This document shows positions 44,240 to 53,254 of a DNA stretch of 56,481 nucleotides, in pieces. The stretch covers positions 1 to 56,481 of the forward strand of contig JBFLWK010000012.1 of the NCBI GenBank assembly GCA_040757695.1, in the 5' to 3' direction. A program made the position numbers and the translations under genes. Each line of letters begins with the position of its first letter. Position 1 is the first letter of the stretch. The DNA is from Elusimicrobiota bacterium. Its GTDB lineage: Bacteria > Elusimicrobiota > UBA8919. The notes beneath the pieces are model-generated. The model did no database searches. It saw nothing but the letters and a program-made list of their open reading frames with translations, and was not told the origin of the DNA.

Positions 44240-46351
44240 TTATTTTACAAAAATAATTAAAATTGTCAATAGCAAACTTAACCCAACAAAAAAGCAAGTA
44301 TTTATCGTGCCAATTAGTGGAACAAAAATCAAACTTGCTGATATAGAACCAGCTAATGCGCCTAAAAGGTCCAGCGCATAGAACTTACCAATGGTTTCTT
44401 TTGTTGTTACTAACGGGAATATGAGTCCTACAAACAGTCCTGCTATAAATACCAAGACATAAAAAACTGATAATGGAATGGTCATTCCAATTTTAAACAA
44501 GGAACCTAAAATTAAAGAATACAGAATAATGAACCACATTGTATTTTTTATTGTCTTAACGCGTGTTTCTTGTTTAAACATTTTTCCGCCCACATAACTG
44601 CCAGTTCCAATTCCTAAAAGATTTAACGAAAACAGCAGTCCGATTTGGTAGTAAATATAGCCATAGACCGATTGAAACGCAAAAATTAGAATCAGTTCAA
44701 ACACCATAGCGAGAAAACTGATAACAACAAGCGCAGATTCAAATAGTAATTTTTTAATTTTTACAAAAAAAAGAACCAGAAAAATATAACTAAAAAACAA
44801 AACAGCAACAAGCCAGCGAGTAATAGAAGGTGAAAAAGATACCAATCTGCTGTTGAAATACGAAAGCCAGTATCTCAAACCATAAAGATAGCACAGCGGC
44901 TGAAAATCATAATTCAACCCTGTGAATGCTTTTTTAGACGAAATCCAATCAGCCAGTTTTTCTACTCTATCTTTTCTCAAAATATAATCAAGATAATACG
45001 GTGTAAGATATTTTGTTGTAATTTTTTGTATCTGTAATTCCCGTTTTAATATCTCTGGAATTATCTCAATTTTTTTAGCAGCGCATAAAAAATAATTATA
45101 TGATGCAGGCACTGTTTCGCAGTATTCAAAGACGCTTTTTACAGTATTAAAAACAGATGCGGATAAAAACCGTTGCTCATCAGACATATAGTTTTCAGAT
45201 GATAAAAGCGGGAATATTAAGATGCCATCAGGTGATAATATTTTTTTTAATTCACCAAAAAACTCTTTTGTAAAATACCTATTAGCAAGACCTGTCAGCG
45301 GCGGTGAGATATTGAGAATAATACAATCGTATTTTTCAGTTATTTGTTTGACAAAAAATCTGCCATCTGCAAGATGAACTTTCAAGTTAAGGCTATTAAA
45401 ATCAGCCGAGTATTTTTTTAATACTTCAAAAAAAACCGGATTAGAAATAACATAATCAATTTTTATTATTTTATATTTCAACAACTCATTTATCTCATTA
45501 TTAGCATCCCCAAGCAACAGGATATTTTTGCACGAAGGTACCAGTGCCAACGGGATATGTGTTATTTCTTCATTTTGTACAGATGGTATTGTAGAATAAA
45601 TTTTAGTTGAATTCTCGTAAAAATCGTAATCGGTATCACCTGCTTTTAGGACTGTTACTCTGCCATAAAACGAATCTTTTGTCTCAACAGGTTCAAATGG
45701 TTTCCATTGTTGTGAAAACGAAAATCTATCAATAGTTTCAGAATGAAAAAATATGATGCCAAGTAATACAAGTATCCAAAAAAGAAAAAATTTTTTATAC
45801 GATGCGAATATCAGAAACCCAAAAATTAAAGCAGAAAAAAACAAACTTATCTGGAATGCAGATAGATATTTTATCAAAATTATATTCGTTATGAATCCAC
45901 CAAAAACTGCACCTGATGTTTCCACTGCATATACTATGCCAGCCGAGTTTCGCTGTCGGAATATCTGGGCTGATAACACAAACCAACTACCAAAAAGAAA
46001 ACAAATCACAACGACAGTTAAGAACGAAATAACAAACACAGGGATTAACCCTAACATTTCCGTCGGTGCTTTATTGGTAAGATGTCTTGCAACCCGTATT
46101 CCGAGTAATTCAGATGGTGTAATAACTGCCGTCAGTAAAACACAAATTTTTAGTAACTTATCTGCATTTTCAATTTTTACTCTGCCACGCTCTGTTATAT
46201 ATGAACCAACCGCTACTATCAGCATCCAGTTTGCGATAAATATACCGATTACCAATTCATTATCAAAAAAAACAACCAATAATTCACGCAGAAGCAGAAT
46301 CTGGTAACCAAGCGATACAAACCCAAGCAAAAAAAGTGATATCAATGCCAT
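44240..46351 (-). CDS. Membrane-bound spermidine-synthase-like protein
   Basis: The 703-residue protein has about seven N-terminal helices (1-200), a soluble middle and about seven C-terminal helices (500-700). The middle part resembles spermidine synthases: YGRVTVLK, ILLLGDANNEINELL in place of the usual GGG-D-G motif, the acidic HLADGRFFV and YDCIILNISPP. Proteins with this membrane-spermidine synthase-membrane build occur widely in anaerobes, and their substrate is unknown. It overlaps the DsbD_2-like gene by 10 nt and probably acts with it. True polyamine synthesis is doubtful because the motif I glycines are changed. Confidence 0.65.
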   Translation of the reverse strand: MALISLFLLGFVSLGYQILLLRELLVVFFDNELVIGIFIANWMLIVAVGSYITERGRVKIENADKLLKICVLLTAVITPSELLGIRVARHLTNKAPTEMLGLIPVFVISFLTVVVICFLFGSWFVLSAQIFRQRNSAGIVYAVETSGAVFGGFITNIILIKYLSAFQISLFFSALIFGFLIFASYKKFFLFWILVLLGIIFFHSETIDRFSFSQQWKPFEPVETKDSFYGRVTVLKAGDTDYDFYENSTKIYSTIPSVQNEEITHIPLALVPSCKNILLLGDANNEINELLKYKIIKIDYVISNPVFFEVLKKYSADFNSLNLKVHLADGRFFVKQITEKYDCIILNISPPLTGLANRYFTKEFFGELKKILSPDGILIFPLLSSENYMSDEQRFLSASVFNTVKSVFEYCETVPASYNYFLCAAKKIEIIPEILKRELQIQKITTKYLTPYYLDYILRKDRVEKLADWISSKKAFTGLNYDFQPLCYLYGLRYWLSYFNSRLVSFSPSITRWLVAVLFFSYIFLVLFFVKIKKLLFESALVVISFLAMVFELILIFAFQSVYGYIYYQIGLLFSLNLLGIGTGSYVGGKMFKQETRVKTIKNTMWFIILYSLILGSLFKIGMTIPLSVFYVLVFIAGLFVGLIFPLVTTKETIGKFYALDLLGALAGSISASLIFVPLIGTINTCFFVGLSLLLTILIIFVK

Positions 46352-46974
46352 AAAATAAGTTTTATACCAAAATAAACGAGAATGATATTCGCGATTAACT
46401 TGAACACCAGATATAACTTTCCTAATTTTAATGCCAAGTTTGCCAACAAACCACTGAATATACCCAGAAGTATAAGTGGTGAAAAAAGTGTTCCGAGTCC
46501 AAATACCAGTCCGTTAAGAAATCCATAAAAAATATTTGCTGATTTACACGCTATATAAGTTAAAATACCGATAAGTGGTATACAAGGTGTAAGCCCGATA
46601 AAAAGACCGAGCAACAAACTGCCTGTTTGGGTTTTATTATTAAAATATCTATGAATAAAACTGCAGAATTTTATATTCTCTTTACCAAATTCGTATAACG
46701 GTAACAATAAAATTATTAGAATACCTGCAGTCTGCTTAAAAATATTTTTTTGGATACCGACTGTATTTACAAAAGCAACTGCCACCAAACCCAAAATACT
46801 GTAGGCAGCAATTCTACCAATAGAAAAAACAATCACCCATTTTAGCCCTTCTTTATGATTAAGCCCTTTTGCAAAAATATACGATGAAATAACAGGTGCA
46901 CAAAATAAAAAACAGGGACCGAAACCAAACCCGAGCCCTGCAAGAAATAATTCTACCCAAACAGTCAAATTCAT
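46342..46974 (-). CDS. DsbD_2/CcdA-like membrane protein
   Basis: This is a six-helix inner-membrane protein of 210 residues. The first helix carries GFGPCFLFCAP (Cys21, Cys25), and a second, similarly placed GLTPCIPLIG lies in the second half, the inverted-repeat layout of CcdA/DsbD transmembrane domains (DsbD_2 family). Such proteins move electrons or metals across the membrane. It lies between the AmrS-like radical SAM gene and the spermidine-synthase-like gene, so the three probably form one pathway. Confidence 0.7.
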   Translation of the reverse strand: MNLTVWVELFLAGLGFGFGPCFLFCAPVISSYIFAKGLNHKEGLKWVIVFSIGRIAAYSILGLVAVAFVNTVGIQKNIFKQTAGILIILLLPLYEFGKENIKFCSFIHRYFNNKTQTGSLLLGLFIGLTPCIPLIGILTYIACKSANIFYGFLNGLVFGLGTLFSPLILLGIFSGLLANLALKLGKLYLVFKLIANIILVYFGIKLILWH

Positions 46975-47013
46975 ATCAATTTATGTTTTCTAGTTAGCGA
47001 CAACGTGAAAACA

Positions 47014-48180
47014 TTATTTTTGCCAGACACCGTATATTTTCTGACCGCAGATTTTACAACAACCGTTAACAACATTATTCTTGTCTACATAGAAACCGAG
47101 CCGTTTGATTAACAGTTTTTTGCATTTCGGACAGTATGTATTTTCACCTTCGTTACCCGGTGGAACATTACCAACATATACATATTTTAGTCCCTCATTC
47201 ATTGCAATTTTTCTTAAGTTCTCAACGGTAGAAACTGGTGTTGTCGGATAATTCAGCATTTTGTATTCCGGATGAAATCGTGTGAAATGTAGTGGAACAT
47301 CTGTTCCAATATTCTTTACAAGCCATCTTGCCATCTGACGCACTTCGTCGGGCTTATCATTAAGCGTAGGCACAACAAGATACACAATCTCTAAATGAAC
47401 ACCGGCTTGTTTTACCGTTTTTATTGTTTCTAAAACAGGCTCAAGTTGCGCACCGACAATATCTTCATAGTATTTTTTATTGAACGATTTTAAGTCAACT
47501 TTGTAAGCATCAACATATTTCAAAAGTTTTTTCAGAGGTTCAGGATTGATATATCCGCATGAGACAACCACATTTTTCAGTCCTTCTTTTTTTGCTAATG
47601 ACGAAATTTCAATCATATATTCGTAAAAAACTGTTGGTTCTGTATATGTATAGGCGATAACCTTTGCGCCACTTTTTTTAGCAGTTCTGACAATATCTTC
47701 AGGCGTGATATAAAGCGCCGAACTTTCATCAGGCATAATTTTAGAAATCTGCCAGTTCTGGCAGAATTTGCATCCGACATTACAGCCGGCAGTTGCGATA
47801 GAGAATGCTGCTTCCGACGGCAAAAAATGGAAAAATGGTTTCTTTTCTATCGGGTCAACATTTATTGTACAAGGTCGAGAATATGTAAGTGTATAAAGTT
47901 TGCCGTCTTTGTTTTCTCGGGTTCTACAGACACCTCGTTGGTTAGGTGCGATTGTGCATCGCCACGGACAAAGCCCGCATTTCACAAAATCGTTCGGTAG
48001 TTTTTCATAAAACTGTGCTTCTTTTGGCAGCACTTTTGTATCGTCATATTTCGGAAATCCCTGTGTATAAAGGCAGGTAAAAAGTTGACACGAAATATCA
48101 TTCCCGAATGGTGCTATCTGGAATCCAGAAAAAAGTAGAAATATAGAAACAAAAAGCACTAACCACCTTTTCTTTTTCAT
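47014..48180 (-). CDS. amrS: AmmeMemoRadiSam system radical SAM protein with N-terminal membrane segment
   Basis: This protein belongs to the AmrS family, which is found with Memo and AMMECR1 proteins. The N-terminal Cys set is CGLCPWRC...GVC (Cys68, 71, 75, 85). The radical SAM motif is CNVGCKFC (133, 137, 140). A C-terminal zinc ribbon has YCPKC...CCKICG. Residues 6-22 form a hydrophobic segment like a signal peptide or anchor, unusual for an oxygen-sensitive cytoplasmic enzyme. Neither Memo nor AMMECR1 is in the window. The gene starts 7 nt after its -10 box. Confidence 0.85.
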   Translation of the reverse strand: MKKKRWLVLFVSIFLLFSGFQIAPFGNDISCQLFTCLYTQGFPKYDDTKVLPKEAQFYEKLPNDFVKCGLCPWRCTIAPNQRGVCRTRENKDGKLYTLTYSRPCTINVDPIEKKPFFHFLPSEAAFSIATAGCNVGCKFCQNWQISKIMPDESSALYITPEDIVRTAKKSGAKVIAYTYTEPTVFYEYMIEISSLAKKEGLKNVVVSCGYINPEPLKKLLKYVDAYKVDLKSFNKKYYEDIVGAQLEPVLETIKTVKQAGVHLEIVYLVVPTLNDKPDEVRQMARWLVKNIGTDVPLHFTRFHPEYKMLNYPTTPVSTVENLRKIAMNEGLKYVYVGNVPPGNEGENTYCPKCKKLLIKRLGFYVDKNNVVNGCCKICGQKIYGVWQK

Positions 48181-48471: not shown

Positions 48472-48765
48472 TCATAAATAAACCACATTCCGTAAAATAT
48501 TTTTTTTCAATTCCCGTCGGATATCTTCTTTTGGGACAACTTCCGTTTTAACCCCCAAAATATCTTCCAGAAATATTTCCAATCCCGCTAGTTTTAGAAG
48601 GCTTATGGCCTCGTTAAAACTAACCAGAATATCAATATCGCTTCTTGGGGTTTGTGTGTTCCTGACATATGAACCAAAAACACCAATTTTTTTGACTTTA
48701 TATTTGTCGTGCAATTCAGTTTTATGTGCTTGTATTATTTTTTTGATTTCGTTGAGGGTTTTCAT
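48472..48765 (-). CDS. mntA: MNT-type minimal nucleotidyltransferase, orphan
   Basis: The 97-residue protein has GVFGSYVRNTQTPRSDIDILVSF, the GSxxR..T..SDxD nucleotidyltransferase motif. MntA proteins usually act as antitoxins that AMPylate a HEPN RNase toxin encoded next door. No HEPN gene is seen on either side, since the flanks hold only repeats. So it is either an orphan or acts on a partner elsewhere. Its own promoter stands 7 nt before the ATG. Confidence 0.8.
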   Translation of the reverse strand: MKTLNEIKKIIQAHKTELHDKYKVKKIGVFGSYVRNTQTPRSDIDILVSFNEAISLLKLAGLEIFLEDILGVKTEVVPKEDIRRELKKNILRNVVYL

Positions 48766-48810: not shown

Positions 48811-49105
48811 ACCCTACCACCTGTCTGCAAAACAAAGTTTTGCTATTGTAAAAAGACAGATGGCAGGGTGACCATTACCACCCCAGCCCGGCGTTGGAAC
48901 AGAATTTGGGACAGGTTCTTGGATGAATTGCCATTCTGAAAATCAGTGTATCATTTTATCTTGCTACGAAATCTATTGTCATTGTCACACAAGTTTGAAA
49001 ATTTCAAGTCAGGCACCATTTCACAAGTCAGGCACCATTTCACCACCATTTCACCCCATTTCACCATTTCTCAGGCACCATTTCCCTCCATTCCCATTTC
49101 TTTAC
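48811..49105. repeat. Gene-free stretch with a hairpin and CAGGCACCATTT tandem repeats
   Basis: ACCCTACCACCTGTCT (from 48812) and AGACAGATGGCAGGGT (to about 48871) form an imperfect hairpin. Further on, CAGGCACCATTTC units with CACCATTTC and CCCATTTCAC variants recur from about 49012 to 49085, a degenerate short tandem array. Plus-strand frames here are low-complexity and not taken as genes. Nothing else was seen in the 387-nt gap. Confidence 0.65.
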
Positions 49106-49152: not shown

Positions 49153-49743
49153 TTATTTTTTACTTTCGTTCAATTTTTCTTTTGCCCTCTTTATATTTTC
49201 TATTGATGGTTGATGTCTGGTGTCAATTTTTAATACTTTCTCATAGAATTCTATTGCTTTTTCATAGTTACCATTACTAAATGCCTGTTGACCTTTTGTA
49301 AAATACTCGCGCATCTTTGACTTTTTCTCCTCATCTGATACTTCGAGTTTTTTAGTTTGTTCTTCTTTTTTCTTGTATTCAATTTTTTTTTGCTCTATCA
49401 AATCTAATGTAGCTTTTTCATTTATATAGATGGCTGTCATATAGGAATCGTAGATGCTCCAAACATACAAGAAACCAAATCCGCCACCGGTTAATAAGTA
49501 ACCTGCTCCTTTACCTACTTTACCATTATAAAAGCATCCACCACCAGGCAAAATTGCCCAGAGTGCAGCTAAATAAGGATTTTTTTTCTTAACAATTTTT
49601 ATATCCATAGTTGACAATCCCCAGATAAGTTTACTTCTTTCATCTGAGTCAAGAACATCTGGATAAAGTCCACTTGCTTTACATCTTTCAATTTTCCCTA
49701 AAACTCCACAGATAATCATAATAATAATTAAACATTTTTTCAT
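49153..49743 (-). CDS. Envelope protein with a DUF5683/TM2-like hydrophobic domain and TPR
   Basis: The 196-residue protein has a signal peptide (CLIIIMIICGVLG). A hydrophobic domain, NPYLAALWAILPGGGCFYNGKVGKGAGYL, resembles TM2/DUF5683-type membrane domains. It is followed by a Lys/Glu-rich coiled segment and one TPR (QQAFSNGNYEKAIEFYEKVLKID). The hydrophobic domain is related in layout to that at the end of the YidD fusion two genes upstream (KAALFSLIPGFGKIYSAK). It is the last gene of a four-gene operon. Function unknown. Confidence 0.6.
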   Translation of the reverse strand: MKKCLIIIMIICGVLGKIERCKASGLYPDVLDSDERSKLIWGLSTMDIKIVKKKNPYLAALWAILPGGGCFYNGKVGKGAGYLLTGGGFGFLYVWSIYDSYMTAIYINEKATLDLIEQKKIEYKKKEEQTKKLEVSDEEKKSKMREYFTKGQQAFSNGNYEKAIEFYEKVLKIDTRHQPSIENIKRAKEKLNESKK

Positions 49744-49773
49744 CTCATCACCCCAATTTTCTCTTATTAATTT

Positions 49774-50781
49774 TTATTGATACTTATATTTTAATATCAT
49801 TCCATTTAATATTTTTCTTACTCCAGCTTTAAGTACTAAATTTTTAGATTCATTATCATCTTTCAATTGAGGAACCTTCAATTTAGGTTTATTTATATCT
49901 CCCCAATCAATCTTCATATCTTCCTCATAAGAAGATGACCAGCCAGGAACCAGAAAAGGTAATGCCAAACCTCCGGTGAAAGTTAGTAAAGCACATGTCC
50001 CAAAAAACTTTGGTTTCTTAAGGTCTACTTCTATTCCTGACTCACCGTCTACAAACCCAGTACTAATTGTTTCACCTGATGTTGTATCCAAAATCTGTGC
50101 AGCTAGACATACTCTGTTAGAAGGATTGAAATCCAAACTTGGCCCTAATCCTCCCGGGGTTTCGTATCCTTTTTGCATTGCGTCTACATATCCCTTAATA
50201 TTATCTACAAGAGTAACCGCCTTCCAACGAGACCTCCAGACCCAGATAATTAAGACAGCATCGGCACCAAGTTTTTCTTTGAAAGTTAAGAGTTCGTTTG
50301 GCTGAATTGTATTAAAATTGATATCAACTATCTCAGTTTCAGAAAAATGCATATCAGATGAATATGCATACTGTCCACCAGCATAATAATCAGTTTTTTT
50401 TTGGCTACTTCTTTCCTCAACCACCAATGGTGAGGAAAGGCTTTGAACGGTAGAGCTACTAATCTGAATCAGTATTTCCTTTTTATCAACACAAGTAAAC
50501 AATTTTAATTCTCTTATTTGTGCTATAAATTCTTCTTGAATCCAGTCTAATTCACTTTCAGTGACTGGATAAGAGTATACAGTAGAATTAACCACAACAG
50601 CTAATTTCTTGATATTATTTACTTTCTTTTTTTCTGTCTGAAATGCATTTTTATAAAATTTTGACATTCTTTCCGATACGTCAACTTTTTCTGTTCCTTC
50701 TTCGGCTGAAGAATAACCATAAAAACCGAATATAAAAATCAAAACCGTCAATAATTCCCAGTATTTTCCATTTTTACTCAT
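49774..50781 (-). CDS. CsgG-like secreted envelope protein
   Basis: The protein (335 residues) has a signal peptide (WELLTVLIFIFGFYGYSSA) without a lipobox Cys. The middle shows KKLAVVVNSTVY, LFTCVDKKEI, KEKLGADAVLIIWVW and AAQILDTTSGETISTGFV, the strand-helix order of CsgG/LpoB/FlgT-type domains. A short hydrophobic LPFLVPGW segment lies later. It probably sits in the periplasm and assists envelope assembly or export. The ATG overlaps the YidD-fusion stop by one nt (TGATG) with GGAGG 5 nt before. Confidence 0.5.
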   Translation of the reverse strand: MSKNGKYWELLTVLIFIFGFYGYSSAEEGTEKVDVSERMSKFYKNAFQTEKKKVNNIKKLAVVVNSTVYSYPVTESELDWIQEEFIAQIRELKLFTCVDKKEILIQISSSTVQSLSSPLVVEERSSQKKTDYYAGGQYAYSSDMHFSETEIVDINFNTIQPNELLTFKEKLGADAVLIIWVWRSRWKAVTLVDNIKGYVDAMQKGYETPGGLGPSLDFNPSNRVCLAAQILDTTSGETISTGFVDGESGIEVDLKKPKFFGTCALLTFTGGLALPFLVPGWSSSYEEDMKIDWGDINKPKLKVPQLKDDNESKNLVLKAGVRKILNGMILKYKYQ

Positions 50782-52016
50782 CACGTCCTCCTTTTTTTGT
50801 GGTAACTACCACAAGAATTTCTATTCCACTCAATTAATGGCTCAATTTCTCTTTTTAGGTTATTCATAAACTCTTTTTCTTTATTACTGTTGTAATTAAT
50901 AGCTGCATCAGCACCACTATAAATATTGCCGGTGTAAAAAGAAAATGTAAATAATGACCAAATGACTGCCGAGGGATATACATTTTTGGTGTAGCAATCA
51001 TAAGCCAAATATCCTAAACCAGTAATTAAGAAAAAAGAGAATACCCCATCGGCTATTTTCGCGGAATAGATTTTACCAAACCCAGGTATTAAGGAAAATA
51101 GAGCGGCTTTTGTTGGCGATTTTTTCTTTAGTTTATTTACTACATTTAATTCATTTATTATCCTTTCAATGACTTGTTTCTCCGCTGGTTCAGTAAATTT
51201 TTCTCTTAATTGTATAAATTCATCGTTTGCTTCTTTCCAGCGTCTTTCCATTACATAACTCCATGCATACAAAAGTTTTGCTTTTTTAGCAATTTTGGGA
51301 TACTTTTCATCATTACAGATTTCAAAATATTTATTTCGTGCTAAATGGTATGCTTTTGTATCAAGGTAAATTTTACCCAGAGCTAATTGGGATACTAAAT
51401 AAATTTCATATGAGTCTATTGTGCATTGTTCAAAATATATTTTAGATTTTTTAAAATCACTTTTTTTTAGATAACATAATCCAATTTTGTAATATGAGTA
51501 ATTAAGAAATTTTGAATTTTGATTATAATGAACATATCTTGTATACTCAAGCAAAGCAGAATCATAACATTCATCAGAAAATAATTTATCAGCCAAATCT
51601 AAATTAGGCTCAACAGAAATAGTTTTTAATTTCTGATTCTCCACTAAGTTAAAGTCATCTTTTTTTTCATTTGTAAGATTAGCAAAAATATAATGTTTTT
51701 CAACCGGGTCGTTTCCCCATTCACCAAAATAATTACATCTTTGTAATCTATCCGATGCCATTAAAAAACCTGTAAAAAAGCCAAATTTTAAAATTGATTC
51801 TTTAGCGAAATTGGAACATGTAGGATTAAATCTACAAGTTTGGCCTTTAATGGTGGAAATATATTTTTGATAGTAATCAATTAATTTTATAGATGAGTCC
51901 TGTAATATAGAAGTTGTCTCTATATTATTTTCAGCAAATATTATTTCAAAAATAATAAATGTAAAGATACTCAACAAAAAAATATTTTTTTGATTTTTGT
52001 TTTTTAAAGTAAACAT
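50781..52016 (-). CDS. YidD-domain protein fused to TPR repeats and a DUF5683-like membrane domain
   Basis: YidD is normally an 80-residue factor that helps YidC insert membrane proteins. Here, after a signal-like segment, residues about 40-105 are a YidD domain: IDYYQKYISTIKGQTCRFNPTCSNFAKESI...RLQRCNYFG..NDPV. TPR-like helices follow to about 290, then a hydrophobic domain, KAALFSLIPGFGKIYSAKIADGVF. The start is the ATG after GGAAAG. The fusion, together with the neighbouring envelope genes, suggests a dedicated secretion or outer-membrane assembly function. That role is inferred. Confidence 0.7.
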   Translation of the reverse strand: MFTLKNKNQKNIFLLSIFTFIIFEIIFAENNIETTSILQDSSIKLIDYYQKYISTIKGQTCRFNPTCSNFAKESILKFGFFTGFLMASDRLQRCNYFGEWGNDPVEKHYIFANLTNEKKDDFNLVENQKLKTISVEPNLDLADKLFSDECYDSALLEYTRYVHYNQNSKFLNYSYYKIGLCYLKKSDFKKSKIYFEQCTIDSYEIYLVSQLALGKIYLDTKAYHLARNKYFEICNDEKYPKIAKKAKLLYAWSYVMERRWKEANDEFIQLREKFTEPAEKQVIERIINELNVVNKLKKKSPTKAALFSLIPGFGKIYSAKIADGVFSFFLITGLGYLAYDCYTKNVYPSAVIWSLFTFSFYTGNIYSGADAAINYNSNKEKEFMNNLKREIEPLIEWNRNSCGSYHKKRRT

Positions 52017-52096
52017 CTTTCCTTTTTTCAACTTTCAAAGTCTAACATTTCATCTGAAGTCTGGCACAAAATACCTTTTTATTTTATTTGCTGAAA

Positions 52097-53254
52097 CTAA
52101 AATCCTAATCTAATATTTATACATCTCAGGGCATAATTCTTTAGAGGTAACCGATATAACATTTCATGATAGTTTTTTGAAAAGCTAATTGTTAATGCAC
52201 ATGTAGATACACCAAAAGCTATATCCCCGGAATAACCAATTAGTCCCTCGTCAAATAAACCTTTTGAATAAGATACTCCAATATTCGACCCAACATAGAA
52301 ACTTATTTCTTTTCCAAATTTTTCTATATATTTATGTTTAGGTCTTAAAAAATTAATTCTCAGTTTAGATAAAACATAATCTAAACTGAACCAATCATCT
52401 TTTTTATAAATATTGAAAAAAATAGCTGAATTAACTGAAATAGATTCGTTTAGTGTAAGGTCTCCAAATCCAAGTCCGGCCTGATGTGTATTTTCATTCC
52501 TATAATAATTATAACTAACCGTTAGTTTCTTCCCAATATATTTAGCACCTTTATATACATCAAGTTTCTTTTCAGTAGAATTATATAAAGCTTTATTCTC
52601 ATAACCATATAAATAGAAATCAACTAAGCTTTTTGATTCTTTATATACATTTGAATAATATTTACCATCCTCTTTATATACTCCAAACTGTTTACTTCCG
52701 TCAGGAGCTGTCACAATATAAGGAGACCAGCCACCCAAAATAAAAAAATTGAAAATAATATTTTTGCTGATAATAAACCTTAACCCCATCAAATCATTAA
52801 CTTCCGACCAATCGTATATATTTTTATAATAAGAAGGAAGTTCATATTCAGGAACTATCAAGCGAACACCTTGATTTAGGAAAAAGAGAGCCATAGAAAA
52901 ATATTTCATTCCCCATCTATAATAAAATCCAAAATCCATTTGTTCTACGTTTATATTACATGAACCAACTGTTGTGGGAATAACAAAAATAATATCCTCA
53001 GCAAAGATGCCCGGAGTAATCATACTAACATCGCATAAGAATTTTGGATTGAATTTTTGTATCATCGCTTCATAGTGTTTGTATAATTCTAATATGTTGA
53101 GCGATTTTTTATGGATATATTCAAATGTTGCAGGATTTATTTCAGTGCCATTTGCTTTTATTAAGGAAATAAAATAAAAAAATAGAAAAGCAAGTACAAA
53201 AATGTTAAGTAGTCTTATTGATTTGTTCTGATTGAATTGTTTTTTTTCTTTCAT
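52097..53254 (-). CDS. Probable outer-membrane beta-barrel protein
   Basis: This is a 385-residue protein of unknown family. It has a basic N-terminus and hydrophobic signal (IFVLAFLFFYFISLIKA). Alternating amphipathic strands rich in Tyr and Phe follow (KLTVSYNYYRNEN, GLGFGDLTLNESISV, ISFYVGSNIGVSYSK). It ends INIRLGF with a C-terminal Phe, the usual barrel assembly signal. It is the first gene of the four-gene envelope operon, 81 nt before the YidD fusion. No substrate can be guessed. Confidence 0.6.
   Translation of the reverse strand: MKEKKQFNQNKSIRLLNIFVLAFLFFYFISLIKANGTEINPATFEYIHKKSLNILELYKHYEAMIQKFNPKFLCDVSMITPGIFAEDIIFVIPTTVGSCNINVEQMDFGFYYRWGMKYFSMALFFLNQGVRLIVPEYELPSYYKNIYDWSEVNDLMGLRFIISKNIIFNFFILGGWSPYIVTAPDGSKQFGVYKEDGKYYSNVYKESKSLVDFYLYGYENKALYNSTEKKLDVYKGAKYIGKKLTVSYNYYRNENTHQAGLGFGDLTLNESISVNSAIFFNIYKKDDWFSLDYVLSKLRINFLRPKHKYIEKFGKEISFYVGSNIGVSYSKGLFDEGLIGYSGDIAFGVSTCALTISFSKNYHEMLYRLPLKNYALRCINIRLGF

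Follow-up and report, generated by a model that had tools for sequence, protein, structure and literature searches.

An exported YidD domain tied to a TPR-TM2 protein in Elusimicrobiota and Ignavibacteria, and its possible role in envelope-protein biogenesis

The canonical YidD protein is present in most bacteria and helps membrane proteins to insert from the cytoplasmic side, and how it acts is known mainly from E. coli. It is short, cytoplasmic and stand-alone, lacks a signal peptide and is encoded in the rnpA-yidC locus. Other described proteins share single parts with the locus analysed here. TM2 (PF05154) and DUF5683 (PF18935) proteins contain a hydrophobic hairpin with the pattern PGxGxxYxGxxxxG, and BamD/YfiO-type TPR proteins are periplasmic lipoproteins of the outer membrane. 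YfgM, a periplasmic TPR protein with an N-terminal membrane anchor, acts at SecYEG; together with PpiD it associates with the Sec translocon and stimulates translocation (PMC9643414). Moreover, canonical YidD is listed in PMC8082313 as a Sec contact, by in vitro transport and cross-linking (Yu et al. 2011).

The window, i.e. the whole stretch of DNA that was analysed, comprises 56,481 nucleotides of an Elusimicrobiota genome (2.89 Mb, 264 contigs, 99% complete). A sequence-only reading had described four open reading frames encoded in order with tight joins. They are indeed present on the minus strand at 49153-53254:

52097-53254, minus strand: gene 1 (ORF), exported protein of 385 aa with a C-terminal Phe, putatively barrel-like
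50781-52031, minus strand: gene 2 (ORF, profiles and AF2), the core protein, with signal peptide, YidD domain, TPR and TM2/DUF5683-like hairpin
51933-52016, minus strand: signal peptide-like segment of gene 2, MFTLKNKNQKNIFLLSIFTFIIFEIIFA (peak 19-mer hydropathy of the core protein, 2.02, at residue 12)
51678-51899, minus strand: YidD domain of gene 2 (PF01809, motifs and tree)
51144-51611, minus strand: TPR solenoid of gene 2 (AF2 model, residues 136-291)
50832-51116, minus strand: C-terminal hydrophobic hairpin of gene 2, PGxGKIYSxxxxDG...FYTGN, TM2/DUF5683-like (conservation in relatives)
49774-50784, minus strand: gene 3 (ORF), exported protein of 336 aa that had been called CsgG-like
49153-49743, minus strand: gene 4 (ORF and profiles), protein of 196 aa with signal peptide, TM2/DUF5683-like hairpin and TPR

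According to the ORF coordinates, the genes are joined at +65, -4 and +30 bp, and a scan for promoters and terminators gave no clear signal of a transcription unit. The product of gene 2 has 416 aa when translated from TTG and 411 aa from the likelier ATG at 52016. Degenerate 'caggcaccatttcac' direct repeats lie at 49000-49100, immediately 3' of gene 4. Further along the same strand, the window encodes a small MntA-like nucleotidyltransferase (48472-48765; 41.7 bits against a cut-off of 60) and, in tandem, a spermidine synthase-like membrane protein, a DsbD-like protein and an AmmeMemoRadiSam radical SAM enzyme (44240-48180).

The core protein had been read as a secreted fusion of YidD, TPR and a DUF5683-like part behind a signal-like segment, and the profile searches bear this out. 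PF01809 recognises residues 47-110 with 75 bits (cut-off 27) and TIGR00278 scores 68.8 bits (cut-off 40), so that the YidD-like segment withstands the HMM test that had been proposed for it. The domain sits behind the hydrophobic N-terminal segment and ahead of the TPR. It shares the CxFxPxCS core with canonical YidD, retaining the cysteine pair of CRFNPTC and the RC; a DR motif is present and the HPxxGG motif is absent. The core protein differs from canonical YidD in that the domain is part of an exported fusion encoded elsewhere in the genome. The genome also has a canonical yidD (97 bits) between rnpA-like and yidC-like genes and, since that site is occupied, the exported YidD is an extra copy.

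The AF2 model of the core protein, which was built from a 45-sequence alignment, reached a pLDDT of 85.9 and consists of a signal helix, a small helical YidD domain, a disordered linker (113-134), the TPR solenoid (136-291, pLDDT mostly above 93) and a helical hairpin (321-343 and 347-395). The PDB copy that was searched yielded no solved structure of a YidD. Foldseek matched the model to TPR proteins, many of them at similar scores and none at E<=0.001. YfgM from the PpiD-YfgM complex was among the better superpositions (TM 0.78 by target length, 2.7 A). That the solenoid belongs to the TPR class is certain; a kinship with YfgM, judged from the model, is not certain, as the resemblance is at the level of the TPR fold. 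Moreover, YfgM lacks a YidD domain and is anchored at its N-terminus, whereas the anchor of the core protein is probably C-terminal. The TPR_6 and TPR_8 matches are weak, as is the match to the NCBIfam model OM_YfiO, which lies far below its cut-off (32 against 81 bits); unlike the core protein, BamD has neither a hairpin nor a YidD domain.

The hairpin of the core protein has no match to the TM2 and DUF5683 profiles of Pfam. Its sequence is likely to insert into a membrane, but since its hydropathy is modest (1.46 and 0.82), the inner-membrane anchor is uncertain and an association with the outer membrane is possible. The sequence-only reading had given gene 4 a TPR and a similar hydrophobic domain, and both were recovered: the gene 4 hairpin is related to the C-terminus of the core protein (phmmer 5e-8) and TPR_1 is above its cut-off (30.3 bits), whereas TM2 (24.4 against 27.9 bits) and DUF5683 (18 against 26.7 bits) remain below theirs. 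The motif PGxGxxY is invariant in 37 relatives of the core hairpin, of which 13 match DUF5683 at E<=0.01 (down to 5e-5) and three match TM2. Apart from these scores, the locus differs from described TM2 and DUF5683 proteins by its YidD partner and, in the core protein, by the TPR that lies before the hairpin.

Does this arrangement recur in other genomes? The query P0002 matched just two other genomes of 341 searched (E<=1e-12), and the family-level relatives of the window genome have YidD in stand-alone form only. The four-gene operon was rejected as a conserved system, as the core protein recurs without genes 1 and 3 and the full set was found in the window genome only. The co-occurrence that had been expected of the operon thus failed for the set of four in relatives and held in two phyla for the YidD-TPR-TM2 core. 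An exported YidD that is fused to a TPR-TM2 protein with a signal peptide, or encoded directly before one, occurs in at least 42 genomes, namely four of Elusimicrobiota and 38 of the phylum to which a Melioribacteraceae genome belongs (Ignavibacteria and relatives). Class and phylum searches yielded 41 of these (4 fused and 37 split loci), to which the split locus of the Elusimicrobiota genome G152 was added. The Endomicrobia genome G275 has the same fusion as the window (36-37% identity). In G204, the module is split and a signal-peptide YidD adjoins a signal-peptide TPR-TM2 protein, while a contig scan with the TPR-TM2 part led to a locus of the Melioribacteraceae genome in which two TPR-TM2 proteins come after an exported YidD. 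Conversely, wherever an Elusimicrobiota genome has a second YidD that bears a signal peptide (four cases), a TPR-TM2 part is fused or adjacent to it.

The association also emerged when YidD was left out of the query. A search of 119 genomes from the class of the Melioribacteraceae genome with the TPR-TM2 protein P0012, which contains no YidD, matched 20 genomes, and in 20 of 20 an exported YidD was fused or adjacent, the match in G423 being weak. In all 37 split loci, the two genes share a strand and YidD comes first, the median gap being -4 bp, and all 35 split relatives match PF01809 at E<=1e-3. Like the core protein, the split relatives start with a hydrophobic segment that resembles a signal peptide. 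As the two parts are fused in some genomes and adjacent in others, this Rosetta-stone evidence links YidD and TPR-TM2 functionally. A search of a plasmid collection returned, among the matches listed, alignments that covered YidD and no other part (14-21% of the query). Five further genomes of the phylum with two YidDs (G061, G130, G193, G265 and G040) were set aside as not being of the exported YidD-TPR-TM2 kind; across them, the second copy lacked a signal peptide, was degenerate, lay on a duplicated contig or had TM segments and no TPR-TM2 partner. The literature searched (YidD with periplasmic, fusion/TPR, paralog, Ignavibacter and DUF5683) contained no description of the architecture. Judged from these genomes, the exported YidD-TPR-TM2 module is strikingly conserved, whereas the four-gene 'system' is not. 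The architecture is well supported; the function we infer from sequence.

The exported YidDs also differ from the canonical ones in sequence. In a tree of 75 YidD domains, a single branch (SH-aLRT 95) separates the exported from the canonical copies. Because the tree is unrooted, was calculated from 84 alignment columns and carries labels that were partly derived from the DR motif, a single origin of the exported YidDs is suggested and not proved. In the loci read, 41 domains located far from the N-terminus have the DR motif without the HPxxGG tail, two exported copies (L067 and L070) lack the motif as written, and none of the canonical copies has it. The motif is an imperfect marker, since a copy in G130 carries it although that protein is anchored by TM segments and lacks a TPR-TM2 partner. 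The gene (L042:1132-1698) encodes TM segments and, C-terminal to them, a YidD domain with the motif DRIKRC; no TPR-TM2 gene is next to it. Both cysteines of C-x5-C are kept in 35 of 35 split copies, and outside the cytoplasm this pair could be joined by a disulphide.

A tentative reading, to which we give a little less than an even chance, is that the core protein is a periplasmic, inner-membrane-anchored YidD-TPR factor for the biogenesis of exported envelope proteins. The Sec machinery would export the protein, the C-terminal hairpin would anchor it in the inner membrane and the TPR would offer a docking surface in the periplasm. The YidD domain would rest on the periplasmic leaflet close to where proteins exit Sec/YidC, and there it could help newly translocated envelope proteins to leave the translocon, to mature or to be passed on. 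Judged from the neighbouring genes, the clients might be outer-membrane or lipid-anchored proteins. The protein would, overall, unite the periplasmic equivalent of canonical YidD with a TPR scaffold of the YfgM type. This mechanism is proposed because PMC8082313 names canonical YidD among the in vitro contacts of Sec and because periplasmic TPR proteins like YfgM act at the translocon (PMC9643414). With somewhat more reserve, we consider it possible that the exported YidDs form a distinct branch that is held by TPR-TM2, acts at the periplasmic face of the inner membrane and represents a new class of envelope-protein biogenesis factors in Elusimicrobiota and Ignavibacteria; a YidD activity would then have changed sides of the membrane.

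Alternatively, the exported YidD could be a repurposed fragment that merely caps the TPR-TM2 protein structurally and neither assists insertion nor export. The Ignavibacteria-type copies lend themselves to this explanation, as their third cysteine is replaced by Asp and the HPxxGG motif is lost, so that in these bacteria it may have ceased to function as a YidD; moreover, some copies score just ~41 bits against PF01809. However, a YidD domain is present in every cassette read and 9 columns are invariant in 35 split sequences, including the Cys pair, a Pro, the Asp-Arg and an Arg; the domain is therefore selected for some function, and we regard a mere cap as unlikely.

The genes around the module point to the cell envelope as a recurring theme, with no single constant partner. 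In G275 and in G425/G418, which belong to different phyla, the module is preceded by a small exported two-TM protein (phmmer 4e-14 between the two lineages) and by a LolA-like protein (5e-7). The two-TM protein of G275 (L028:1245-1805) has a Cys/Gly-rich tail, is encoded upstream of the LolA-like and YidD-TPR-TM2 genes and is homologous to L112:1456-1869 in the other phylum. The fused genes of G381 and G412 lie directly downstream of barrel-like genes in tandem duplication and of a gene for a PEGA lipoprotein:

L111:5374-8301 (G412): tandem barrel-like genes and PEGA lipoprotein
L110:4127-8331 (G381): tandem barrel-like genes and PEGA lipoprotein

Upstream of the fused YidD of G275 there is also a barrel-like gene, which is weakly PorP/SprF-like. 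Two genes 3' of the TPR-TM2 gene, G204 encodes an exported protein of 143 aa with two internal FASCCLGPR...EWLRL repeats (L047:10084-10515). Most Ignavibacteria-type cassettes are located between an acyl-CoA dehydrogenase gene and an ACT-domain gene, flanks that say nothing about envelope assembly. As the neighbours differ between lineages, the identities of the clients are guesses; the flanking genes are probably clients or lineage-specific helpers, not fixed parts.

These neighbours also suggest that the module might handle the transfer of lipoproteins or lipids across the periplasm, with the LolA-like carrier as its original partner. The homology of the LolA-like neighbours across phyla, the families that their Pfam matches indicate (LolA and DUF4292) and the PEGA lipoproteins beside the fused forms are in keeping with this idea. 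However, those Pfam matches are far under the cut-off (E 0.06-0.12; the best has 13.6 against 23.6 bits). Furthermore, relatives of the LolA-like protein were detected in just four of 17 other genomes checked, two of them by weak matches, and at the sensitivity used neither this protein nor the small two-TM protein was detected in the window genome. The TPR protein of G204, which has a LolA-like tail, showed no sequence link to the other LolA-like proteins (hhalign 0.1%). On balance, we consider such a transfer role improbable.

The remaining claims concern genes 1 and 3. Gene 1 had been described as an outer-membrane-like barrel, for which no profile speaks: it has no Pfam or NCBIfam match. 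A crude test of beta-strand alternation gave it a score no higher than that of shuffled sequences, which speaks neither for nor against a barrel; what can be cited for a barrel is the signal-like segment and the C-terminal Phe. We infer a barrel, if at all, from these features. Its sole relative in 324 other genomes of the phylum (G151, L117:7150-8346, 32% identity) likewise has no Pfam match, stands alone and is not near any YidD, and a kinship with the barrel-like proteins of G275, G381 and G412 was rejected, as they are unrelated by sequence. The CsgG-like assignment of gene 3 found no support in CsgG family profiles (up to E 10) or in a PDB sequence search (E<=1). The single-sequence AF2 model of gene 3 has a pLDDT of 32, too low to speak for or against a CsgG fold, and no relative was detected in 335 other Elusimicrobiota genomes at E<=1e-3. 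An hhalign comparison with an exported lipoprotein of 178 aa near the G152 cassette likewise gave no support for CsgG. Among the neighbours scanned there were neither substrates of the CsgA/CsgB type nor CsgE/F partners.

It is very doubtful that the locus encodes an outer-membrane export or assembly system in which the barrel is the channel, the CsgG-like protein is a lipoprotein or a pore for secretion and the substrate is fed in by YidD-TPR-TM2. Signal-like segments in four of four window proteins would fit it, as would the barrel-like genes that precede the fused gene in the window, G275, G381 and G412, but no search gave evidence for CsgG, the barrel-like proteins of the other loci are unrelated to that of the window, the split loci have no barrel in the ~1.5 kb flanks read, neither a substrate nor an outer-membrane channel recurs, and genes 1 and 3 do not follow the core. 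Of the 'new secretion or assembly system' that had been suggested, envelope assembly is retained as the best broad reading, whereas secretion across the outer membrane is not.

If the exported YidD acts in the periplasm as a biogenesis factor for envelope proteins, it would add a component to this process in two phyla in which it has been little studied, and it would account for some of the 'extra YidD' genes. With its consistent link to a TPR-TM2 protein, the exported branch offers a natural second system for studying what YidD does outside its usual place at the cytoplasmic side of YidC; it may be present in cultivable Ignavibacteria.
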